In this document: positions 42,143-53,955 of the stretch, one piece after another | Numbering within the stretch: the first letter of the stretch is position 1 | Layout of the letters: every line of letters begins with the position of its first letter | From: Arthrobacter sp. M2012083 | Lineage (GTDB): Bacteria > Actinomycetota > Actinomycetes > Actinomycetales > Micrococcaceae | Length of the DNA stretch: 64,000 nt | Direction of reading: 5' to 3' | Assembly (NCBI RefSeq): GCF_000281065.1 | Contig: NZ_AKKK01000009.1 | Span: 62,001-126,000 of the forward strand | Made by a program: the position numbers and the translations under genes | The notes under the pieces: model-generated | Told to the model about the DNA's origin: nothing | Databases searched by the model: none | Seen by the model: only the letters and a program-made list of their open reading frames with translations

Positions 42143-43060
42143 GTGTCCACTCAGTTCCAGGGCGTCATCCCCCCGGTCATCACCCCCCGCCACGCAGACG
42201 GCAGCATCGACACCGCGTCGCTGAAAAACGTCACCAAGCACCTGATCGACGGCGGTGTGTCCGGCCTTTTCGTCCTGGGCTCCTCCGGCGAAGTCCCCTA
42301 CCTGACCAACGACGAGCGTGAGCTGGTGGTCTCCACCATCGCCGATGCCAACGCCGGAGCTGTCCCGTTGATCGTGGGCGCCAACGAGCAAACCACCAAC
42401 CGCGTGATCGAAGAGGCCCGCAAGGTGGTTGACCTCGGTGCTGACGCGATCGTAGTCACCTCCATGTACTACGCGATCGGCAATGCCGCAGAGACCGAAA
42501 CGCACTTCCGCAGCATTCACGCCGCTATCGAGAAGCCGATCTTCGCCTACGACGTCCCGGTCCGCACGCACTTCAAGCTGCCCACCGACCTCCTGGTCCG
42601 CCTCGGCCGCGATGGCGTCATTGCCGGCGTCAAGGACTCCTCCGGCGACGACGTTTCTTTCCGCCAGCTGCTGCTCGCCGCTAAGGACATCCCAAACTTC
42701 GACATCTTCACCGGTCACGAAGTTGTGGTGGACGGCGCACTCCTGGGCGGCGCGCAGGGCGTTGTTCCGGGCCTTGGCAACGTCGATCCGGCCGGTTACC
42801 GCCGCCTGTTCGATGCCGCGAATGCCGGCGACTGGGCTCTCGCGGCAAGGGAGCAGGACCGCTTGGCGGACGTCTTCGAGATCGTGTACACCCCCAACGG
42901 TCGCGTCTCCGGTGGCGCCGCTGGTCTGGGTGCGTTCAAGACGGCACTGCAGGTGATGGGTGTCATCGAGTCCAACACCATGAGCTCGCCGATGCTTTCC
43001 TTGAACGATTCCGAGACTGCAGCGATTCGCGAAATCCTGGAGCGGAACGGGCTGGTCTAA
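42143..43060 (+). CDS. nanA: N-acetylneuraminate lyase (DHDPS/NAL family)
   Basis: A 305-residue TIM-barrel class I aldolase. The Schiff-base lysine is Lys164 in 'VIAGVKDSSGD', the catalytic tyrosine Tyr136 in 'IFAYDVP', and the carboxylate-binding loop is 'GSSGE' (46-50). It should split sialic acid to ManNAc and pyruvate. The family alone cannot separate it from dihydrodipicolinate synthase, but its place between a sialic acid type importer and nanK/nanE makes lyase the best call. GTG start with CGGAGA upstream. Confidence 0.85.
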   Translation: MSTQFQGVIPPVITPRHADGSIDTASLKNVTKHLIDGGVSGLFVLGSSGEVPYLTNDERELVVSTIADANAGAVPLIVGANEQTTNRVIEEARKVVDLGADAIVVTSMYYAIGNAAETETHFRSIHAAIEKPIFAYDVPVRTHFKLPTDLLVRLGRDGVIAGVKDSSGDDVSFRQLLLAAKDIPNFDIFTGHEVVVDGALLGGAQGVVPGLGNVDPAGYRRLFDAANAGDWALAAREQDRLADVFEIVYTPNGRVSGGAAGLGAFKTALQVMGVIESNTMSSPMLSLNDSETAAIREILERNGLV

Positions 43061-43065
43061 GCTTC

Positions 43066-44052
43066 ATGACCCACGTGATCGGCGTTGACCTCGGCGGCAC
43101 CAAGACTGCCGCCGGGGTTGTTTCCCCTGCAGGTGAAGTGCTCATGTCGGAGACCTTCCCGACGTTGAACCGGGCCGGTGGCGAAGCCATCCTCGACGCC
43201 ACCGCTGCGCTGATCGCGGGCTTGGTAGAGCGCGCTGCCGACGCCGGAATCTCGGTTTCCGGCGTCGGTATCGGCTCCGCCGGGGTCATCGACGCTTCTT
43301 CCGGGGCTGTCTTGTCTGCGACGGATGCGATTCATGATTGGGCCGGAACTGAGCTTGTTTCGGGCTTGTCCTCGCGGCTTTCGCTCGCTCCTTCGATGGT
43401 CCGTGCCGTCAACGACGTCCACGCCCACGCCCTCGGCGAAGCTTGGCTGGGCGCTGCTGCGGGATCCTCGAGTTCGCTCATGGTGGCCTTCGGGACCGGA
43501 GTCGGCGGCAGTTTCGTGCTGGATGGTTCCCCGGTTTTGGGTCACCGCTTTGTTGGCGGGCATGTGGGGCACTTTGCTTCTCCATACGCCGCTTTTGAAG
43601 GGTCGCCGCTGCCCTGCGTGTGTGGCGGTTCCGGGCACGTTGAGGCGATTGCTTCCGGCCCTGCCCTTTATGAGGCGTTCCTGCGGTTTGGGGGTTCTAC
43701 CCTGGATGCGGCGGACTCCCGGGGCGTGTTTGCGCTGGCGACTTCTGCAACTGACGGGCTCGACGGCGGTGCTGGCGCAGCCTTTGCGGACAGCCGCGCC
43801 GCCGCACTGCGTGCCATCGAGGTTGCGGCAGCAGCAGCGGGCCAAGCCGTGGGCGGACTCATCAATATCCTCGACCCCGAAACCGTGGTGATCTCCGGTG
43901 GCTTGGCCGACGCCGGCGAGCTCTGGTGGAAGCCCATGGAGTTCGCCTTGCGTCAGGAACTCCTGGCTCCGTTGGTTTCCGTGCCAGTTGTCCGGGCAAC
44001 TCTCGGCAACACCGCTGCCATTGTCGGCGCCGCAAAACTCGTCCTTAAGTAA
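43066..44052 (+). CDS. nanK: N-acetylmannosamine kinase (ROK family)
   Basis: A 328-residue ROK sugar kinase that should phosphorylate ManNAc at C6. Motifs: ATP-binding 'DLGGTKT' (8-14), catalytic Asp117 in 'VNDVHAHA', and 'GGHVGH' (164-169). The first His of that motif replaces the Glu of most ROK kinases, as in E. coli NanK, which supports ManNAc specificity. The zinc motif is 'CVCGGSGHVE': Cys184, Cys186, and His191 where a third Cys is usual. It begins five bases after nanA and ends 10 bases before nanE. Confidence 0.9.
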   Translation: MTHVIGVDLGGTKTAAGVVSPAGEVLMSETFPTLNRAGGEAILDATAALIAGLVERAADAGISVSGVGIGSAGVIDASSGAVLSATDAIHDWAGTELVSGLSSRLSLAPSMVRAVNDVHAHALGEAWLGAAAGSSSSLMVAFGTGVGGSFVLDGSPVLGHRFVGGHVGHFASPYAAFEGSPLPCVCGGSGHVEAIASGPALYEAFLRFGGSTLDAADSRGVFALATSATDGLDGGAGAAFADSRAAALRAIEVAAAAAGQAVGGLINILDPETVVISGGLADAGELWWKPMEFALRQELLAPLVSVPVVRATLGNTAAIVGAAKLVLK

Positions 44053-44062
44053 GGGAGACATC

Positions 44063-44749
44063 ATGATTCTCACCCCCGAAGGCCTCGAAGCGTTACGCTC
44101 CCAGTTGATCGTCTCTTGCCAGGCCTATCCCGGGGAGCCCATGCGCGATCCCCGGACAACCGCCCAAGTGGCCGCGTCAGCGGTCATTGGCGGGGCTGCG
44201 GCGATCCGCGTCCAAGGGTTGGCCGACGTGCAGTTCACGCGCACCGCCGTCGAGGTTCCTGTCATTGGCCTCTGGAAGGACGGCCACGACGGCGTCTTCA
44301 TCACCCCCACGCTCTGTCATGCTTTGGCCGTCGCGAATGCCGGCGCGCATGTTGTAGCGATCGATGGAACGCGGCGTGCCCGCCCGGATGGGCTTACCCT
44401 GACTGCGACCGTGGCCGGAATTCACGCGGAATCGCACGCTTTGGTCATGGCTGATTGTGGCTCGTTCGATGACGCCTTGGCAGCCGTGGAGGCCGGAGCT
44501 GACCTCATTGGCACCACATTGTCCGGTTACACCGGCGAGCGCCCCAAGACGGAGGGCCCGGACTTGCCGCTCTTGGAGCAGATCGCTTCCGCTGAGTTGG
44601 GTAAGCCGCTCATAGCGGAAGGCCGCATCCATACCCCGGCCCAAGCGCGGCAAGCCCTCGACGCCGGCGCCTTTGCTGTGGTGGTGGGCACCGCCATCAC
44701 CCACCCGGCCAGCATCACCGGCTGGTTCAAGGGCGCGATGCACGCCTAG
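44063..44749 (+). CDS. nanE: N-acetylmannosamine-6-phosphate 2-epimerase
   Basis: A 228-residue TIM-barrel NanE that converts ManNAc-6-P to GlcNAc-6-P. The typical start 'LRSQLIVSCQAYPGEPM', the substrate strand 'VPVIGLWKDGHDGVFITPT', 'VVAIDGTRRARPDG' and 'DLIGTTLSGYT' are all present, with a C-terminal 'LIAEGRIHTPAQARQAL' phosphate loop. ATG 44063 has AAGGGAGA upstream. Last gene of the cluster. NagA and NagB, needed to finish the pathway, are not in the window. Confidence 0.95.
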   Translation: MILTPEGLEALRSQLIVSCQAYPGEPMRDPRTTAQVAASAVIGGAAAIRVQGLADVQFTRTAVEVPVIGLWKDGHDGVFITPTLCHALAVANAGAHVVAIDGTRRARPDGLTLTATVAGIHAESHALVMADCGSFDDALAAVEAGADLIGTTLSGYTGERPKTEGPDLPLLEQIASAELGKPLIAEGRIHTPAQARQALDAGAFAVVVGTAITHPASITGWFKGAMHA

Positions 44750-46399: not shown

Positions 46400-46428
46400 T
46401 TGAACTGACCGGTCAGTTTAGTTAGACT
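46400..46428 (+). promoter_or_regulatory. Predicted promoter of the YhgE/TetR operon
   Basis: TTGAAC (46400-46405), 17-bp spacer, TAGACT (46423-46428). The spacer contains most of a perfect palindrome. The GTG start of the first gene is 35 bp further on. Confidence 0.65.
46403..46418. promoter_or_regulatory. Perfect 16-bp palindrome, TetR-type operator
   Basis: AACTGACCGGTCAGTT is fully self-complementary and sits between the -35 and -10 boxes. Its form is typical of TetR-family operators. The likely ligand is the TetR protein at the end of the same operon (49284-49943). Confidence 0.75.
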
Positions 46429-46462
46429 TTCAGCAGACACCATTTCTGCGAAAGGCTTCATT

Positions 46463-47254
46463 GTGCTGTCCGTACAGCAACTCCAGATCAACGGCCGCCG
46501 GGACGATCTCCTCCCGGCAACATCACTCCAAGTCCGGCGCGGCGAACTCCTGCTCGTGGCCGGAGAGGGCCAGGACCAGCGGACCGCTTTGGCTTTGGCT
46601 CTGAGCGGCCGCATGAAGCCAAGCGACGGCATCCTGAGCTGGGACAACACCACCAAGACCAAAAAGATCCGCCTCGCAAGCGCCTTGGTGGACTCCCCGG
46701 GCGTCAACGAACCCGAGCAGCACCTGAGTGTCCGCGATCTGGTTACCGAAGACCTCTCCCTCATCCCTCGCCGTTACCGTGGCGCCCTCCTGAGCAAGCC
46801 CTGGCTGAAGGTCAACAGCTTCGAGGACATCGCCGGACTCTGGATAGAACAAATTCCGGCCGCCCGCCGGCTCGAACTTCTCACCGCGCTTGCCCTGGCA
46901 GATCCGGCCACCGATCTCCTTGTTGTCGACTCCCCGGATCGCCACAGTGCCGATCCCGAGGCTTGGTTGCCCCGGCTTCAGGCATTGGCGTCCGACGCCG
47001 GGCGGCCCCTTGCCGTCGTCGCCGTCGTGGGTGCCCTCCCGGAGAACTGGACCGGCCCCGCTGCGGTGATCGGCAACTCCGTCTCGCATCCACCTGAACC
47101 GGAAGCGGAACCCGCCCCCGCCCACATCAAGCCAGGCCAGGCCAAGCACGCGGCCGAGCCGGCAGCGGAAGCACCCCACAAGCCTGAAACCTCCGCAGCG
47201 ACCACAGCAGCTGCCAAAACTGAATCCGAAAACCTTCAAAGGACTGCAAAGTGA
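46463..47254 (+). CDS. Degenerate ABC-type ATPase-like protein
   Basis: A 263-residue protein that follows the outline of an ABC ATPase but lacks its catalytic residues. The Walker A position reads 'GEGQDQRTAL' (Lys replaced by Arg and the glycines lost), no LSGGQ signature is seen where 'IPAARRLELLTALALADPA' aligns, and Walker B reads 'LLVVDSPDRHSAD' with Ser in place of the catalytic Glu. The last 50 residues are Pro/Ala/Glu/Lys-rich and probably disordered. GTG start with AAAGG upstream. Its stop overlaps the YhgE/Pip gene start, so the two products probably work together. Confidence 0.75.
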   Translation: MLSVQQLQINGRRDDLLPATSLQVRRGELLLVAGEGQDQRTALALALSGRMKPSDGILSWDNTTKTKKIRLASALVDSPGVNEPEQHLSVRDLVTEDLSLIPRRYRGALLSKPWLKVNSFEDIAGLWIEQIPAARRLELLTALALADPATDLLVVDSPDRHSADPEAWLPRLQALASDAGRPLAVVAVVGALPENWTGPAAVIGNSVSHPPEPEAEPAPAHIKPGQAKHAAEPAAEAPHKPETSAATTAAAKTESENLQRTAK

Positions 47255-49287
47255 CTGTTCTGCGGCTCGCCCGCTCCGAACTCAAGCGCATGACCGGCGG
47301 GCTCCTGCCCAAGCTGACCATCCTCGCCCTGACCATGGTCCCGCTGCTCTACGGCGCCGTGTACCTGTACGCGAACTGGGACCCGTACGGCAACCTGAAC
47401 CAGATCGACGCCGCCTTGGTGGTGGAGGACACGGGAGCAACGTCGTCGGACGGTACTGAGCTGCAGGCCGGCAGGAAGGTGGCCGACAGCTTGGTTGAAG
47501 GCCACGTCTTCAACTGGAAGCAGGTGTCCAGCGCGGAGGACGCAGACGCGGGTGTTCGTACGGGTGAATACGCCTTCGCGTTGCGCATTCCCAAGGATTT
47601 CTCCGCCAACTTGGTCTCGCCCGGCAGCTTCGACGCCGCCAACCAGGCCATGCTGCACGTCACCACCAACGACGCCAACAACTACCTCCTGAGCACCATC
47701 GTGGACAAGCTCACAACAGCCGTACATTCAACGGTGGCCAAGGAAGTGGGCGAGGAAACAGCCAACCAGCTCCTCACCGGTTTCGGCACCATCCATGCCT
47801 CCATCGTGAAGGCTGCTGATGGCGCGTCGGAACTGGCCACTGGCGTCGGGAAACTCAGCGACGGCGCCGCGACACTCCACAGCGGCACCACCCAACTGGT
47901 CACAGGCGCCGACCAACTCGTGGCCGGACAGACCCAGTTGCGGGACGGCGCGGCACAACTGAACACCGGTGCCGGGCAGCTAAGTTCGGGACTGACCGAG
48001 CTCAAGAACGAAACCGCTACCCTACCAACTGATTCGCAGAAACTCGCCGACGGCGCAGCACAAGTAGCCGCAGGAAACGCCGAGCTGAACGCGAAAGTCC
48101 AGGACGTCGTCGGGCAGCTCGAAGCGGCGGACAAAGGCCTCCGCAACCGTGTGGTGGAATCGAACGCACGACTGGTGACTGCGGGTGTCCTGACTCAGGA
48201 GCAGGCCGACAAGGTCCTGGCGGACTTTGACGCCGCCGCAGCATCGAGCCCGGTAACGGACGCGAAGACCAAGATCACTGGTGATGCTGCCAAGATCCAG
48301 CAGCTATCGGACGGTTCAGCTGCCGTCAGTGCCGGAGCATCCAAGCTCGCCGCCGCGACACCAGCCCTGACCGACGCGATCTCGAAGGCTGCCGACGGAG
48401 CCGGACAGCTGAGCACCGGCGCATCAACGTTGGCCGCCGGGCAGCAAACCGCCCTGGACGGGGCCGCCAAGCTCGACGACGGCGCTCGCCAACTGGACAG
48501 CGGCGCCAGCCAGCTCGCCAGCGGCGGAGTCACAGCCTCCGACGGCGCCCACACCCTGGCCACCGAGCTCGCCAAAGGCGCGGGAGACATCCCCAACCCA
48601 AACGATGAACAGAAGAGCAGCGTGTCCAAGGTGATCGCGGATCCAGTGGCGGTGGACAACGTTTCCCAGGCTAAGGCAGGTTCCTATGGCGCCGGGCTGG
48701 CACCATTCTTCCTGACCCTCGCACTGTGGATCGGCGTATTCATGCTGGTCCAAGCCATGCGACCCATCACCCAACGGGCCCTCGCCTCTAACGCCCCCGC
48801 GTGGAAAATCGCCGTCGGAGGCTGGCTGCCATTCTTCGTGGTCTCCGTGCTGCAGGCCACCATCCTCACCCTCGTGGTGAATCTCGGCCTGGGCCTGAAC
48901 CCTGCGCACCCCATAGGGATGTGGCTGTTCATGCTCGCCGCAGTGATGGCGTTCAGCGCGATCATCCAAGGCATCGTGGCGCTCATGGGAACGCCCGGAA
49001 AGTTCGTGGTGCTGATCCTGCTGGTCCTGCAGCTCGTGTCCTCAGGCGGTACGTTCCCGTGGCAGACCACGCCGATGCCGCTCCATGTTGTTCACGAGGT
49101 CCTGCCTATGGGATACGTGGTGACCGGCATGAGGCACCTGATCTACGGAGGTGAGCTCAGCATGATCTGGCCCACCGTACTTGGCCTGCTTGGATACACT
49201 TTGCTGGGAGCGGCACTATCAACGCTCGCCGTCCGCAAGCACAAGATGTGGACCCTTAAGACGCTGAAGCCGGAGATCGCAGTATGA
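47251..49287 (+). CDS. YhgE/Pip family membrane protein
   Basis: A 678-residue membrane protein: one helix near the N-terminus (about 12-35), a long extracytoplasmic region, then about five or six helices (about 475-665). The middle (about 190-440) is full of 'L-x-x-G-A-x-x-L' repeats such as 'LSDGAATLHSGTTQLVTGAD' and should form a long coiled structure. The type is YhgE/Pip (phage infection protein) or the related ABC-2/MmpL-like group; some members export or anchor envelope factors. GTG start overlaps the previous stop; the stop overlaps the next ATG. Confidence 0.88.
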   Translation: MTVLRLARSELKRMTGGLLPKLTILALTMVPLLYGAVYLYANWDPYGNLNQIDAALVVEDTGATSSDGTELQAGRKVADSLVEGHVFNWKQVSSAEDADAGVRTGEYAFALRIPKDFSANLVSPGSFDAANQAMLHVTTNDANNYLLSTIVDKLTTAVHSTVAKEVGEETANQLLTGFGTIHASIVKAADGASELATGVGKLSDGAATLHSGTTQLVTGADQLVAGQTQLRDGAAQLNTGAGQLSSGLTELKNETATLPTDSQKLADGAAQVAAGNAELNAKVQDVVGQLEAADKGLRNRVVESNARLVTAGVLTQEQADKVLADFDAAAASSPVTDAKTKITGDAAKIQQLSDGSAAVSAGASKLAAATPALTDAISKAADGAGQLSTGASTLAAGQQTALDGAAKLDDGARQLDSGASQLASGGVTASDGAHTLATELAKGAGDIPNPNDEQKSSVSKVIADPVAVDNVSQAKAGSYGAGLAPFFLTLALWIGVFMLVQAMRPITQRALASNAPAWKIAVGGWLPFFVVSVLQATILTLVVNLGLGLNPAHPIGMWLFMLAAVMAFSAIIQGIVALMGTPGKFVVLILLVLQLVSSGGTFPWQTTPMPLHVVHEVLPMGYVVTGMRHLIYGGELSMIWPTVLGLLGYTLLGAALSTLAVRKHKMWTLKTLKPEIAV

Positions 49288-49943
49288 ACACCATGGAGCC
49301 GGTTCCTTTCCAGGCAGATTCGCGGGCGGAAGAACACGGCCCCGCGGAGAAGAAACTTCGTCCCGGCCGCACTAACGCCACTAAGCAACGCCTGTTCGAA
49401 GCCTCCATGGAGCTGATCGGCGAGCGCGGCGCTGCGGGCGTGACCGTGGATGAAATCGCGGCCGCCGCCGGGGTGTCCAAGGGGACTGTCTATTACAACT
49501 TCGGCAGCAAGTCCGACCTCATCGCGCAGCTCTTGCGGCACGGTGTGGACATCATGCTGGTCCGGCTCCAGGATGTCCGTGGACAGGCCAACGACCCCCT
49601 GGAATCCATGACCAACATGGTGGGGCAGGCTATGGAGTTTATGGACGATTACCCCTCCTTCGCCCGCCTGTGGGTCAGTGAAAACTGGCGCACTCCCGGC
49701 GAATGGAGTGCCGTGTTTGCCGAGCTTCGCGCTGAGCTCCTGGCCGTGATTGGTTCGGCCGTCGAGAGCGTCGCGTCCGGGTACAAGGTTGACGAGAGCA
49801 TTGCCCGGGGGTCCCTGGAGGCGGCGATTTTCGGAGCGATTTTCGTGGTTGGCCTCGACCGGCAGACGTACAACCCTGAGCGCACCCGCGAGCAGAGCGT
49901 CGCAGCCGTCATGACCATCATGCATGGGTACGTCATCAAGTAG
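49284..49943 (+). CDS. TetR/AcrR family regulator
   Basis: A 219-residue TetR regulator. The HTH (about 30-75) reads 'TKQRLFEASMELIGERGAAG' and 'VTVDEIAAAAGVSKGTVYYN'; the remaining helices form the ligand and dimer domain ('FMDDYPSFARLWVSENW'). The ATG overlaps the stop of the YhgE/Pip gene (ATGA). It probably represses its own operon through the palindrome at 46403-46418. Confidence 0.92.
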   Translation: MNTMEPVPFQADSRAEEHGPAEKKLRPGRTNATKQRLFEASMELIGERGAAGVTVDEIAAAAGVSKGTVYYNFGSKSDLIAQLLRHGVDIMLVRLQDVRGQANDPLESMTNMVGQAMEFMDDYPSFARLWVSENWRTPGEWSAVFAELRAELLAVIGSAVESVASGYKVDESIARGSLEAAIFGAIFVVGLDRQTYNPERTREQSVAAVMTIMHGYVIK

Positions 49944-52350: not shown

Positions 52351-53955
52351 TCAGGCAGTGACCGGCTCGGCGTCCCACAATGGCCGGGGACGGGAGGCGA
52401 TGAGGTTCCGCGTGTAGTCGTCACCGGGGTCCTCAAGGATTCGAGCCGTTGGCCCCTGCTCCACGATCCGTCCCTCATGCATCACCAGGAGCTCGGAACA
52501 AAGTCGTGAAACCACAGCCAGATCGTGGGTGACAAACAAGATGGTCAGCCCGAGCTGGTCCCGCAGTTCCTCCACGAGCTCCAGAACTTGGGCTTGGACA
52601 GAGACGTCCAAGGCACTGGTGGCCTCGTCCAGCACCAGGAGCCGGGGGCGGGCAGCGAGCGCCTTGGCCAACGCAACCCGCTGCCTCTGCCCACCCGAGA
52701 GTGCGCGAGGCCGTGCATCAAAGCGTTCCGCTCCGATGCCCACCCGCCCCAACAGCACCCGGGCGCTGTCTTTGGCTTCCTTGCGCCCTTGCTTCTGATG
52801 CAGGCGGAAGACATCTGCCACTGCGTTTCCTACGGGGATGCGCGGGTCCAATGAGAGGTATGGATCCTGGAACACAATTTGGACATCCTTGGCCAGGACT
52901 TTCCGTTCTGAGGCTTTCAGGGGCCTGCGCGGCCTACGAACGTCCCGCAGCGTGAGTTCACCCGATGTTGCAGTTTCCAGCGCCACTACCAGCCGGGCCA
53001 GGGTGGACTTTCCGGAACCCGACTCCCCCACGATGCCCAAAGACCCACCCTCAGGCAGGGCGAAACCGGCGTCGTCCAACGCGGTGATGATTTCGCCGCG
53101 AGGCAGTTGGTAAGTTTTGGATAACCCTGAAACCTTCAGCAGGGGTGACCCTGCGACCACCGGCGTAGCCAAGCCGCCCACTTCAATCACGGGGGTAGCC
53201 TCAACCAACTGCCTGGTGTAGTCCTGCTGGGGGGTCAGGAAAACGGTTTGGGTTTGCCCCTGCTCCACCACTTCGCCCCGGCGAAGCACGTAGACGCGTT
53301 CACACAAGCTGGCGGCAAGATTGAGGTCGTGCGTAATGAAGAGCATGCCCATTCCCCGTGACTGTTGCTCTTCGCGGAGGAGCCTCACGATCCCCGCCTG
53401 GGTAGTGACATCCAGGGCGGTGGTGGGCTCGTCGCACAGCAACAGATCCGGTGAGTTCAGGAGTGCAGCTGCGATCATGACACGTTGGAGCATGCCGCCC
53501 GAGAGCTGATGCGGGTGCTGGTCCATGAGCTCCTTGGCATGCCGCAGGCCCACCTGATCCAACTGCGTCACGGCCCGTTCTGTTGCCTCGGCCCGGGATA
53601 AACCATCAAGCCTCACCAGGGTTTCAGTGAGGAAGTCCCCCACGGTCCGGACGGGGTTGATGCCTGCCCTGGGGTCCTGGAAGATCATGGAAGCGCGCCT
53701 CCGCCGCAGCTCCATGAGGCGTTGCTTGCTCGCTGTGAGAGTGTCGAGGCCCTGAACCGATACGATGCCGGAGGACTGCGAGCCGCCAGGAAACAACCCC
53801 AGCGCGGCCCGGGTAGTCAGCGACTTGCCTGAGCCGGACTCTCCGACCAAGGCGACCGCTTCGCCGTCGTTAACGTGCAGGGAGACACTGTCCAGCAGCG
53901 GCGGCCTGCCCGGAAAACCGAGCGTAAAGTTTTCGATCTGCAAGAGCTGGCTCAT
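52351..53955 (-). CDS. Peptide-type ABC transporter, two-domain ATPase
   Basis: A 534-residue protein holding two complete ABC ATPase domains (about 1-265 and 275-530). Each has Walker A ('GESGSGKS' twice), a signature ('LSGGMLQRVMIAA' and '[15 protein letters not shown]') and Walker B ('LLLCDEPTTALD' and 'LLVLDEATSALD'). It combines DppD and DppF in one chain and so gives both motors of the importer. The start overlaps the preceding permease stop by four bases. Confidence 0.93.
   Translation of the reverse strand: MSQLLQIENFTLGFPGRPPLLDSVSLHVNDGEAVALVGESGSGKSLTTRAALGLFPGGSQSSGIVSVQGLDTLTASKQRLMELRRRRASMIFQDPRAGINPVRTVGDFLTETLVRLDGLSRAEATERAVTQLDQVGLRHAKELMDQHPHQLSGGMLQRVMIAAALLNSPDLLLCDEPTTALDVTTQAGIVRLLREEQQSRGMGMLFITHDLNLAASLCERVYVLRRGEVVEQGQTQTVFLTPQQDYTRQLVEATPVIEVGGLATPVVAGSPLLKVSGLSKTYQLPRGEIITALDDAGFALPEGGSLGIVGESGSGKSTLARLVVALETATSGELTLRDVRRPRRPLKASERKVLAKDVQIVFQDPYLSLDPRIPVGNAVADVFRLHQKQGRKEAKDSARVLLGRVGIGAERFDARPRALSGGQRQRVALAKALAARPRLLVLDEATSALDVSVQAQVLELVEELRDQLGLTILFVTHDLAVVSRLCSELLVMHEGRIVEQGPTARILEDPGDDYTRNLIASRPRPLWDAEPVTA

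Follow-up and report, generated by a model that had tools for sequence, protein, structure and literature searches.

What might a gene with the outline of an ATP-binding cassette (ABC) ATPase do when it lies directly upstream of a YhgE/Pip membrane protein gene and lacks the residues by which such enzymes use ATP? This question is raised by a three-gene locus in a stretch of 64,000 nucleotides from Arthrobacter sp. M2012083 (assembly GCF_000281065.1, contig NZ_AKKK01000009.1, positions 62,001 to 126,000; GTDB lineage Actinomycetes, Actinomycetales, Micrococcaceae), the whole of which is referred to below as the window. The first gene, here called A, is followed by a YhgE/Pip gene and by a gene for a TetR-family regulator. 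Among the members of the YhgE/Pip family are phage-infection proteins and a protein related to a type VII secretion component. On Arthrobacter and Rhodococcus plasmids, the gene upstream of YhgE has been annotated as an ABC or ATP-binding cassette protein; these labels on two plasmid loci imply an ATP-driven transporter, whereas the sequence says otherwise.

The reading that we favor, with a probability of roughly 0.7, is that A is a dead nucleotide-binding domain (NBD) acting as a clamp on YhgE and, in one branch, as a bridge from YhgE to an MMPL transporter. We infer that A would be a former ABC ATPase subunit no longer using ATP, that it would dock beneath the YhgE membrane domain, on the loop that an ABC ATPase would use to hold its permease, and that it would act there as a clamp or connector and not as a motor. 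In the fused branch, an A-type domain at the MMPL C terminus would tie YhgE to a proton-driven pump; the stand-alone form in the window would keep the YhgE dimer either fixed or under regulation, and the TetR protein would repress the three genes from a palindrome at their promoter.

Catalytic motifs, fold and selection of gene A

Alignment with five intact NBDs shows that the Walker A motif of the window protein reads GEGQDQRT, with Arg replacing Lys, that QIPAARR stands in the place of LSGGQ, and that Walker B reads LLVVDSPDRH, with Ser replacing the catalytic Glu. These three changes had been pointed out in a first-pass annotation made from the DNA letters alone, and each was confirmed; two further losses, of the Q-loop Gln and the H-loop His, had escaped it. 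The Walker A Thr and the Walker B Asp are retained. A single-chain ABC protein with two intact NBDs, encoded at window positions 52351 to 53955, served as an alignment control.

The annotation had also proposed a survey of actinobacterial homologues beside YhgE, and had named homologues with intact Walker motifs and measured ATPase activity as the observation that would speak against an inactive protein. Among 106 aligned family members, none retained LSGG, the Walker B Glu, the Q-loop Gln or the H-loop His (0/106 each, the signature column being a gap in 15 decayed fusions), the Walker A Lys was kept in 11, and no homologue carried the full set of intact motifs. This set comprised a 79-row alignment, 5 extra loci from the order and 22 more fusions to MMPL proteins (described below). 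The 79 rows were the window protein, 47 loci from outside the genus, 26 A proteins of loci L153-L177 (three of them fusions that were unrecognized at that stage), L200 and 4 of 13 fetched genus loci; the remaining 9 loci of the genus, present as 10 pieces because L117 is split, were excluded, as were three intact ABC ATPases matched by the profile (second matches in L063, L081 and L112). In L117 (genus genome G030), A and YhgE are each split across two frames, by true decay or assembly error.

The loss of motifs looks graded, with some lineages carrying GSGKT or GSGRT loops together with Asp-Asp at Walker B, and with 51 rows, including the window, mostly showing P-D-R-H after Walker B and no P-loop. 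These 51 rows formed one branch (support, 98) in a first quick tree, which was not recovered in a larger quick tree with the fusions added, where the deep forks are open. Taken together, the motifs point to A being a catalytically dead NBD, presumably unable to use ATP.

The residues that survive at Walker A could be taken to mean that A is a nucleotide sensor, binding ATP or ADP without hydrolysis through the remaining loop, with occupancy switching YhgE. Besides the Lys in 11 of the 106 members, the Thr is kept in 76 and Arg stands for Lys in 48, and a Gly-rich GPSGSGRT loop is kept in members of several families outside the order (e.g., f37). Against a sensor, the P-loop glycines are gone in the branch of the window, other branches read AETEQRPT or GEPGHGHT, and the Walker B Asp, although kept in the window, is lost in 42 of 79 aligned proteins. 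We thus consider a sensor improbable.

The structure of A was predicted with AlphaFold from 73 sequences (mean predicted local distance difference test score [pLDDT], 69; predicted template modeling score [pTM], 0.64), with a core at a pLDDT of about 80 to 96 outside residues 82 to 129 and low confidence at residues 82 to 119 and 209 to 263, the latter being the tail (about 30 to 40). The 50 PDB matches listed by Foldseek and the 50 listed by VIA-align were all ABC ATPases, the best VIA Z score being 16.9 (root mean square deviation, 3.1 Å over 164 residues) to the NBD of AtABCG25. The window protein matched 0 Pfam families and did not reach the gathering score of ABC_tran (PF00005); this model matched 38 of 79 relatives at an E value of ≤0.01, and one relative, L200, exceeded its cut-off (49.8 versus 25 bits). 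A is therefore predicted to fold as an ABC NBD and to descend from the ATPase subunit of an ABC transporter. The ABC ATPase outline that the annotation had recognized is in keeping with both the predicted fold and the homology through relatives, and the structure unlike ABC ATPases that it had allowed for did not materialize.

The core of A is under strong purifying selection, with a ratio of nonsynonymous to synonymous substitution rates (dN/dS) of 0.035 to 0.12 (15 nearest of 72 computed pairs), which rules out a decaying pseudogene. The tail is more loosely constrained (dN/dS of about 0.16 to 0.73; 10 pairs), and A varies from 224 to 276 amino acids (aa) across 30 genus proteins; because of its low pLDDT, variable length and loose constraint, the disordered tail of the first-pass annotation is real and of low confidence in the model but is not the conserved part of the protein. 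A was present in all 37 genus genomes, including that of the window, and its altered motifs are thus not due to chance. Arg40 and Thr41 do not vary among 30 aligned genus proteins, nor among 73. In the genus alignment (73 sequences), the mean majority was 0.95 at residues 73 to 99, 0.92 at residues 100 to 123 and 0.87 in the P-loop area. Residues 73 to 123 are what we take to be the Q-loop and helical-subdomain area, which in ABC proteins faces the permease; a candidate contact with YhgE lies within this most conserved stretch.

Association with YhgE and its coupling loop

The window YhgE exceeded the cut-offs of the N- and C-terminal YhgE models (TIGR03061, 169.9 versus 96.15 bits; TIGR03062, 221.5 versus 102.2 bits) and of ABC2_membrane_3 in Pfam. 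It comprises a first transmembrane helix, an extracellular coiled coil of Leu-x-x-Gly heptads (heptad-repeat model) and an ABC-2-type C-terminal membrane domain. A role in anti-phage defense was considered and rejected, as PADLOC gave weak matches only (YhgE-ZorA, E value of 0.0064; TetR-mad1, E value of 0.0002 over 20 residues).

The genes overlap by 4 nucleotides at both junctions, in agreement with the coordinates and the order that the annotation had given. Among 80 named loci, nearly all from Arthrobacter, Paenarthrobacter or Pseudarthrobacter, the A-YhgE overlap of 4 nucleotides recurs in 79, and an open reading frame of 673 to 697 aa follows A in all 80 (41 were aligned and are YhgE, with 68 to 96% identity). 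A TetR gene is third in 35 of 80 scorable loci. A search with a genus profile detected A in 55 of 297 genomes of the order; all 47 loci outside the genus and 13 within it were retrieved, and A had YhgE beside it in 60 of 60. Conversely, 31 of 148 genomes of the class held 34 YhgE proteins above the cut-off, all of which had A directly upstream (one genome, G002, was scored by coordinates only), 3 of these A domains being MMPL fusions. A harsher sample of 20 genomes of the order without an A match in the genus-profile search yielded 10 YhgE proteins above the cut-off, of which 5 had a divergent A as a separate gene, 1 had an MMPL fusion, 1 lay at a contig end, and 3 had no A found. A degenerate A beside YhgE is a general pattern of the class, beyond the single window.

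Outside the class, A lay beside YhgE in 1 of 11 genomes with YhgE (G600) and was not found beside it in the other ten, several of which have tandem YhgE genes and some of which are cut by contig ends. In the 14 of 52 matching plasmid records that were examined, A was present in 4 of 4 Actinomycete YhgE loci, and a homologue was found in 0 of 10 from Bacillota and Deinococcota. One genome (G445) has two tandem A-YhgE pairs (L168), and the plasmid YhgE genes L294 (Rhodococcus) and L297 (Listeria) both lie near a glutamate decarboxylase gene.

If A docks as an NBD does, extra constraint on the first cytoplasmic loop of the YhgE membrane domain is to be expected in proteins that have A and in no others. 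This loop, which we presume to be residues 500 to 528 on the basis of ABC-2 family topology, had an identity of 0.356 with A and 0.149 without (ratio, 2.4; other segments, 1.07 to 1.36) in a thinned set of 25 proteins with A and 22 without. In a comparison at matched identity, with L199 excluded from the without-A group, the with-A/without-A ratio peaked at 2.7 to 2.8 at residues 498 to 532 and was 0.97 to 1.36 in intervals clear of the loop. In these comparisons and in a profile of the loop, 12 of the 13 fetched genus loci were excluded. With-A proteins scored a leave-one-out median of 48.6 on the profile (lowest, 21.7 apart from L176), without-A proteins at most -27.7 apart from L199, and the ten plasmid YhgE proteins of Bacillota and Deinococcota -36.7 or lower. 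New loci gave 24.8 to 33.3 for five with a separate A, 22.7 and 24.0 for fusions, 54.5 for the contig-end case and -39.7 for the alignable member of an A-less tandem pair. The extra conservation where A is present supports, and would fit, docking of A at the coupling helix.

MMPL fusions and the weighing of explanations

In the first five fusions, the A-type domain forms the C terminus of an MMPL protein in one open frame; all five exceeded the MMPL cut-off and two that of ABC_tran. With a junction profile, at least 25 MMPL-A fusions were found among 296 genomes of the class, fusions extending past model position 187 and ordinary MMPLs, among the matches listed, stopping at about 91 to 128. 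Seven candidates were scored per genome, so that 25 is a lower bound, and one ambiguous match (G089 contig 1; model positions 2 to 121, 185.8 bits) was left uncounted. YhgE was the next gene after the fusion in 24 of 24 testable loci, one more being cut by a contig end, and was next to none of seven ordinary MMPLs (best scoring, mostly family f37, with 1.5-kb flanks). Moreover, better-preserved A domains went with a better YhgE loop fit (Spearman correlation, 0.53; P = 0.008; n = 24, the related loci not being independent). To explain the fusion label, the tree requires four changes, and a single origin is compatible.

Evidence for the MMPL bridge comes from the fused branch only, and A of the window is a stand-alone gene. 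The loop conservation where A is present and the MMPL-A fusions beside YhgE support the earlier suggestion that an inactive ATPase fold may be a regulatory or scaffolding partner of YhgE. We put forward only tentatively, as doubtful, that the whole system has changed its source of energy: in an ABC-2-type complex, the ATPase would have turned into nothing but a connector, which today would link YhgE to MMPL pumps powered by protons. This would happen by fusion in one branch, whereas in the stand-alone branch, to which the window belongs, A would act in trans or as a locked clamp.

Several observations weigh against the reading of A as a clamp or bridge without ATP use. The 11 of 106 members with a Walker A Lys may still bind nucleotide. 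No A was found for the YhgE of L323 or for the tandem pair L326, in two genomes of the order, and the loop score of L323 (G046), 15.4, is well above those of other A-less YhgE proteins. L199 (G590), which lies outside the class, has retained the loop motif (27.3) and has no A beside YhgE and none as a clear best match in the genome, and the fusion partner L176 scored only -9.6 among with-A proteins. The loop conservation amounts to support and not proof, because proteins with and without A are also set apart by phylogeny. An analysis of A-YhgE covariation in 76 pairs (effective number, 27; mutual information with average-product correction) gave no support, as 16 of the 100 top pairs fell in the loop and 14.9 were expected. 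The AlphaFold model of YhgE has confident long helices and a poor membrane part (pTM, 0.34), too poor for docking A. Six of the 25 fusions have a C-terminal extension that scored 0 on the A profile, so that the A-type label there comes from the junction profile only. Finally, no MMPL was found in the window or near the stand-alone A-YhgE loci examined (phmmer, 1e-15), the sole matches being the first five fusions. As side observations, a more decayed A may lie upstream in L323, and L199 has a TetR gene beside YhgE and may have lost A recently.

Alternatively, A could pair with an intact NBD encoded at another locus, in a heterodimer that would make the YhgE complex ATP driven after all. ABC transporters with one degenerate site do exist (TAP, CFTR and TmrAB), as do shared ATPases encoded far from their permeases (MsiK). 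However, the Walker half and the signature half are both missing from A, so that, by this reasoning, a complete catalytic site would arise neither in a homodimer nor with a normal NBD as partner; in the window, none of the three genes has a second ATPase gene overlapping or adjoining it, and the MMPL-A fusions point to a different energy source. We regard such a heterodimer as quite unlikely. That A is a relic, kept for translation coupling through its overlap with yhgE and itself dispensable, would suit the overlap in 79 of 80 loci and the decay of the A-type domain in several fusions, but is highly implausible given the purifying selection on its core, the genus-invariant residues and the conserved coupling loop of YhgE.

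The clamp reading thus keeps its place ahead of these alternatives. Should A prove to be a dead docking domain, the power source of the family, its cargo and the part played by the MMPL link become open to test at once.

Operon control, flanking genes and known systems

Upstream of A, two hexamers resembling those of a promoter flank a perfect palindrome, ACTGACCGGTCAGT, which is present as a single exact copy in the window and in its own genome. All 30 genus loci and all 80 named loci carry the core TGAC[CT][AG]GTCA at 51 to 59 bp upstream of A. A mechanical promoter scan (threshold, 9/12) listed no promoter upstream of A; a promoter there is suggested by position and by flanks conserved in 30 genus loci. 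The TetR_N model scored 59.9 bits on the regulator (Pfam gathering score, 24). Because the unique, conserved palindrome, a candidate TetR operator, lies between the hexamers, the TetR protein probably represses its own three-gene operon from this site. As for a wider TetR regulon, the genome has one exact operator and 3 one-mismatch sites, versus 1 in a reversed control, and no further targets are claimed. The features are listed in Table 1.

Table 1. Features of the A-YhgE-TetR locus in the window and fusion loci elsewhere
Feature	Position	Strand	Details
Candidate promoter	46400..46428	+	TTGAAC-17-TAGACT; 8/12 consensus bases
Palindrome ACTGACCGGTCAGT	46404..46417	.	Perfect, unique, conserved; putative TetR operator
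Likely ribosome-binding site of A	46450..46455	+	GAAAGG; sequence
Gene A	46463..47254	+	GTG start, 263 aa; sequence, alignment, model
Domains of A			Residues 1-207, putatively dead ABC NBD; residues 209-263, variable low-confidence tail
A residues 78-123	46694..46831	+	Candidate YhgE contact; within most conserved stretch; model low-confidence at 82-119
YhgE/Pip gene	47251..49287	+	678 aa
YhgE residues 500-528	48748..48834	+	Presumed first cytoplasmic loop of membrane domain, coupling-helix position; extra conservation where A present
TetR-family regulator gene	49284..49943	+	Third gene of operon, 219 aa; TetR_N above cut-off
MMPL-A fusion loci before YhgE			L172, L173, L176, L324, L327, L358-L377

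Upstream, at window positions 42143 to 44749, lie genes named by comparison with a plasmid as dihydrodipicolinate-synthase-like, ROK kinase and N-acetylmannosamine-6-phosphate epimerase genes; on that Arthrobacter plasmid, the same gene order precedes A-YhgE.

Among the titles and abstract openings listed from the open-access literature, nothing was found on a degenerate ATPase beside YhgE or on an MMPL-NBD fusion, which is not proof of absence. MMPL (RND) transporters are related to the system through the 25 loci with an A-type C terminus; A of the window, in contrast, stands alone. Both MMPL and YhgE are named in two papers; in one of them, PMC9782250, a table lists a YhgE (F1721_04135) and an MMPL (F1721_04140), whose tags suggest that the two are neighbors. 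Bacillota YhgE/Pip proteins (Pip of Lactococcus lactis and PIPEF of Enterococcus faecalis) and EsaA/YueB share the YhgE N- and C-terminal models with the window YhgE. The ten plasmid loci of Bacillota and Deinococcota, however, have no A homologue, and the window YhgE fails the EsaA model (TIGR03929, 40.4 versus 122 bits). In PMC4999554, PIPEF is described as carrying a YhgE domain without known function.

The closest likeness in predicted fold is to the NBDs of type V or ABC-2 exporters (ABCG25, ABCG5/8) and of the heme exporter HrtBA, and YhgE shares the ABC-2 membrane domain; A differs from these NBDs in lacking all five tested catalytic features, and YhgE in having an extracellular part of roughly 400 residues, mostly coiled coil, between its first two helices. 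SbmA and BacA have an ABC-like membrane domain that works without ATP hydrolysis, but they have no NBD, whereas the A-YhgE system retains one that is apparently dead. CFTR, TAP and TmrAB have NBDs with changed catalytic residues and keep at least one working composite site; in A, by contrast, the signature and the Walker B Glu are lost in every aligned member, and such a class-wide, selected and fully degenerate NBD would offer a clean case of an enzyme subunit turned structural part.

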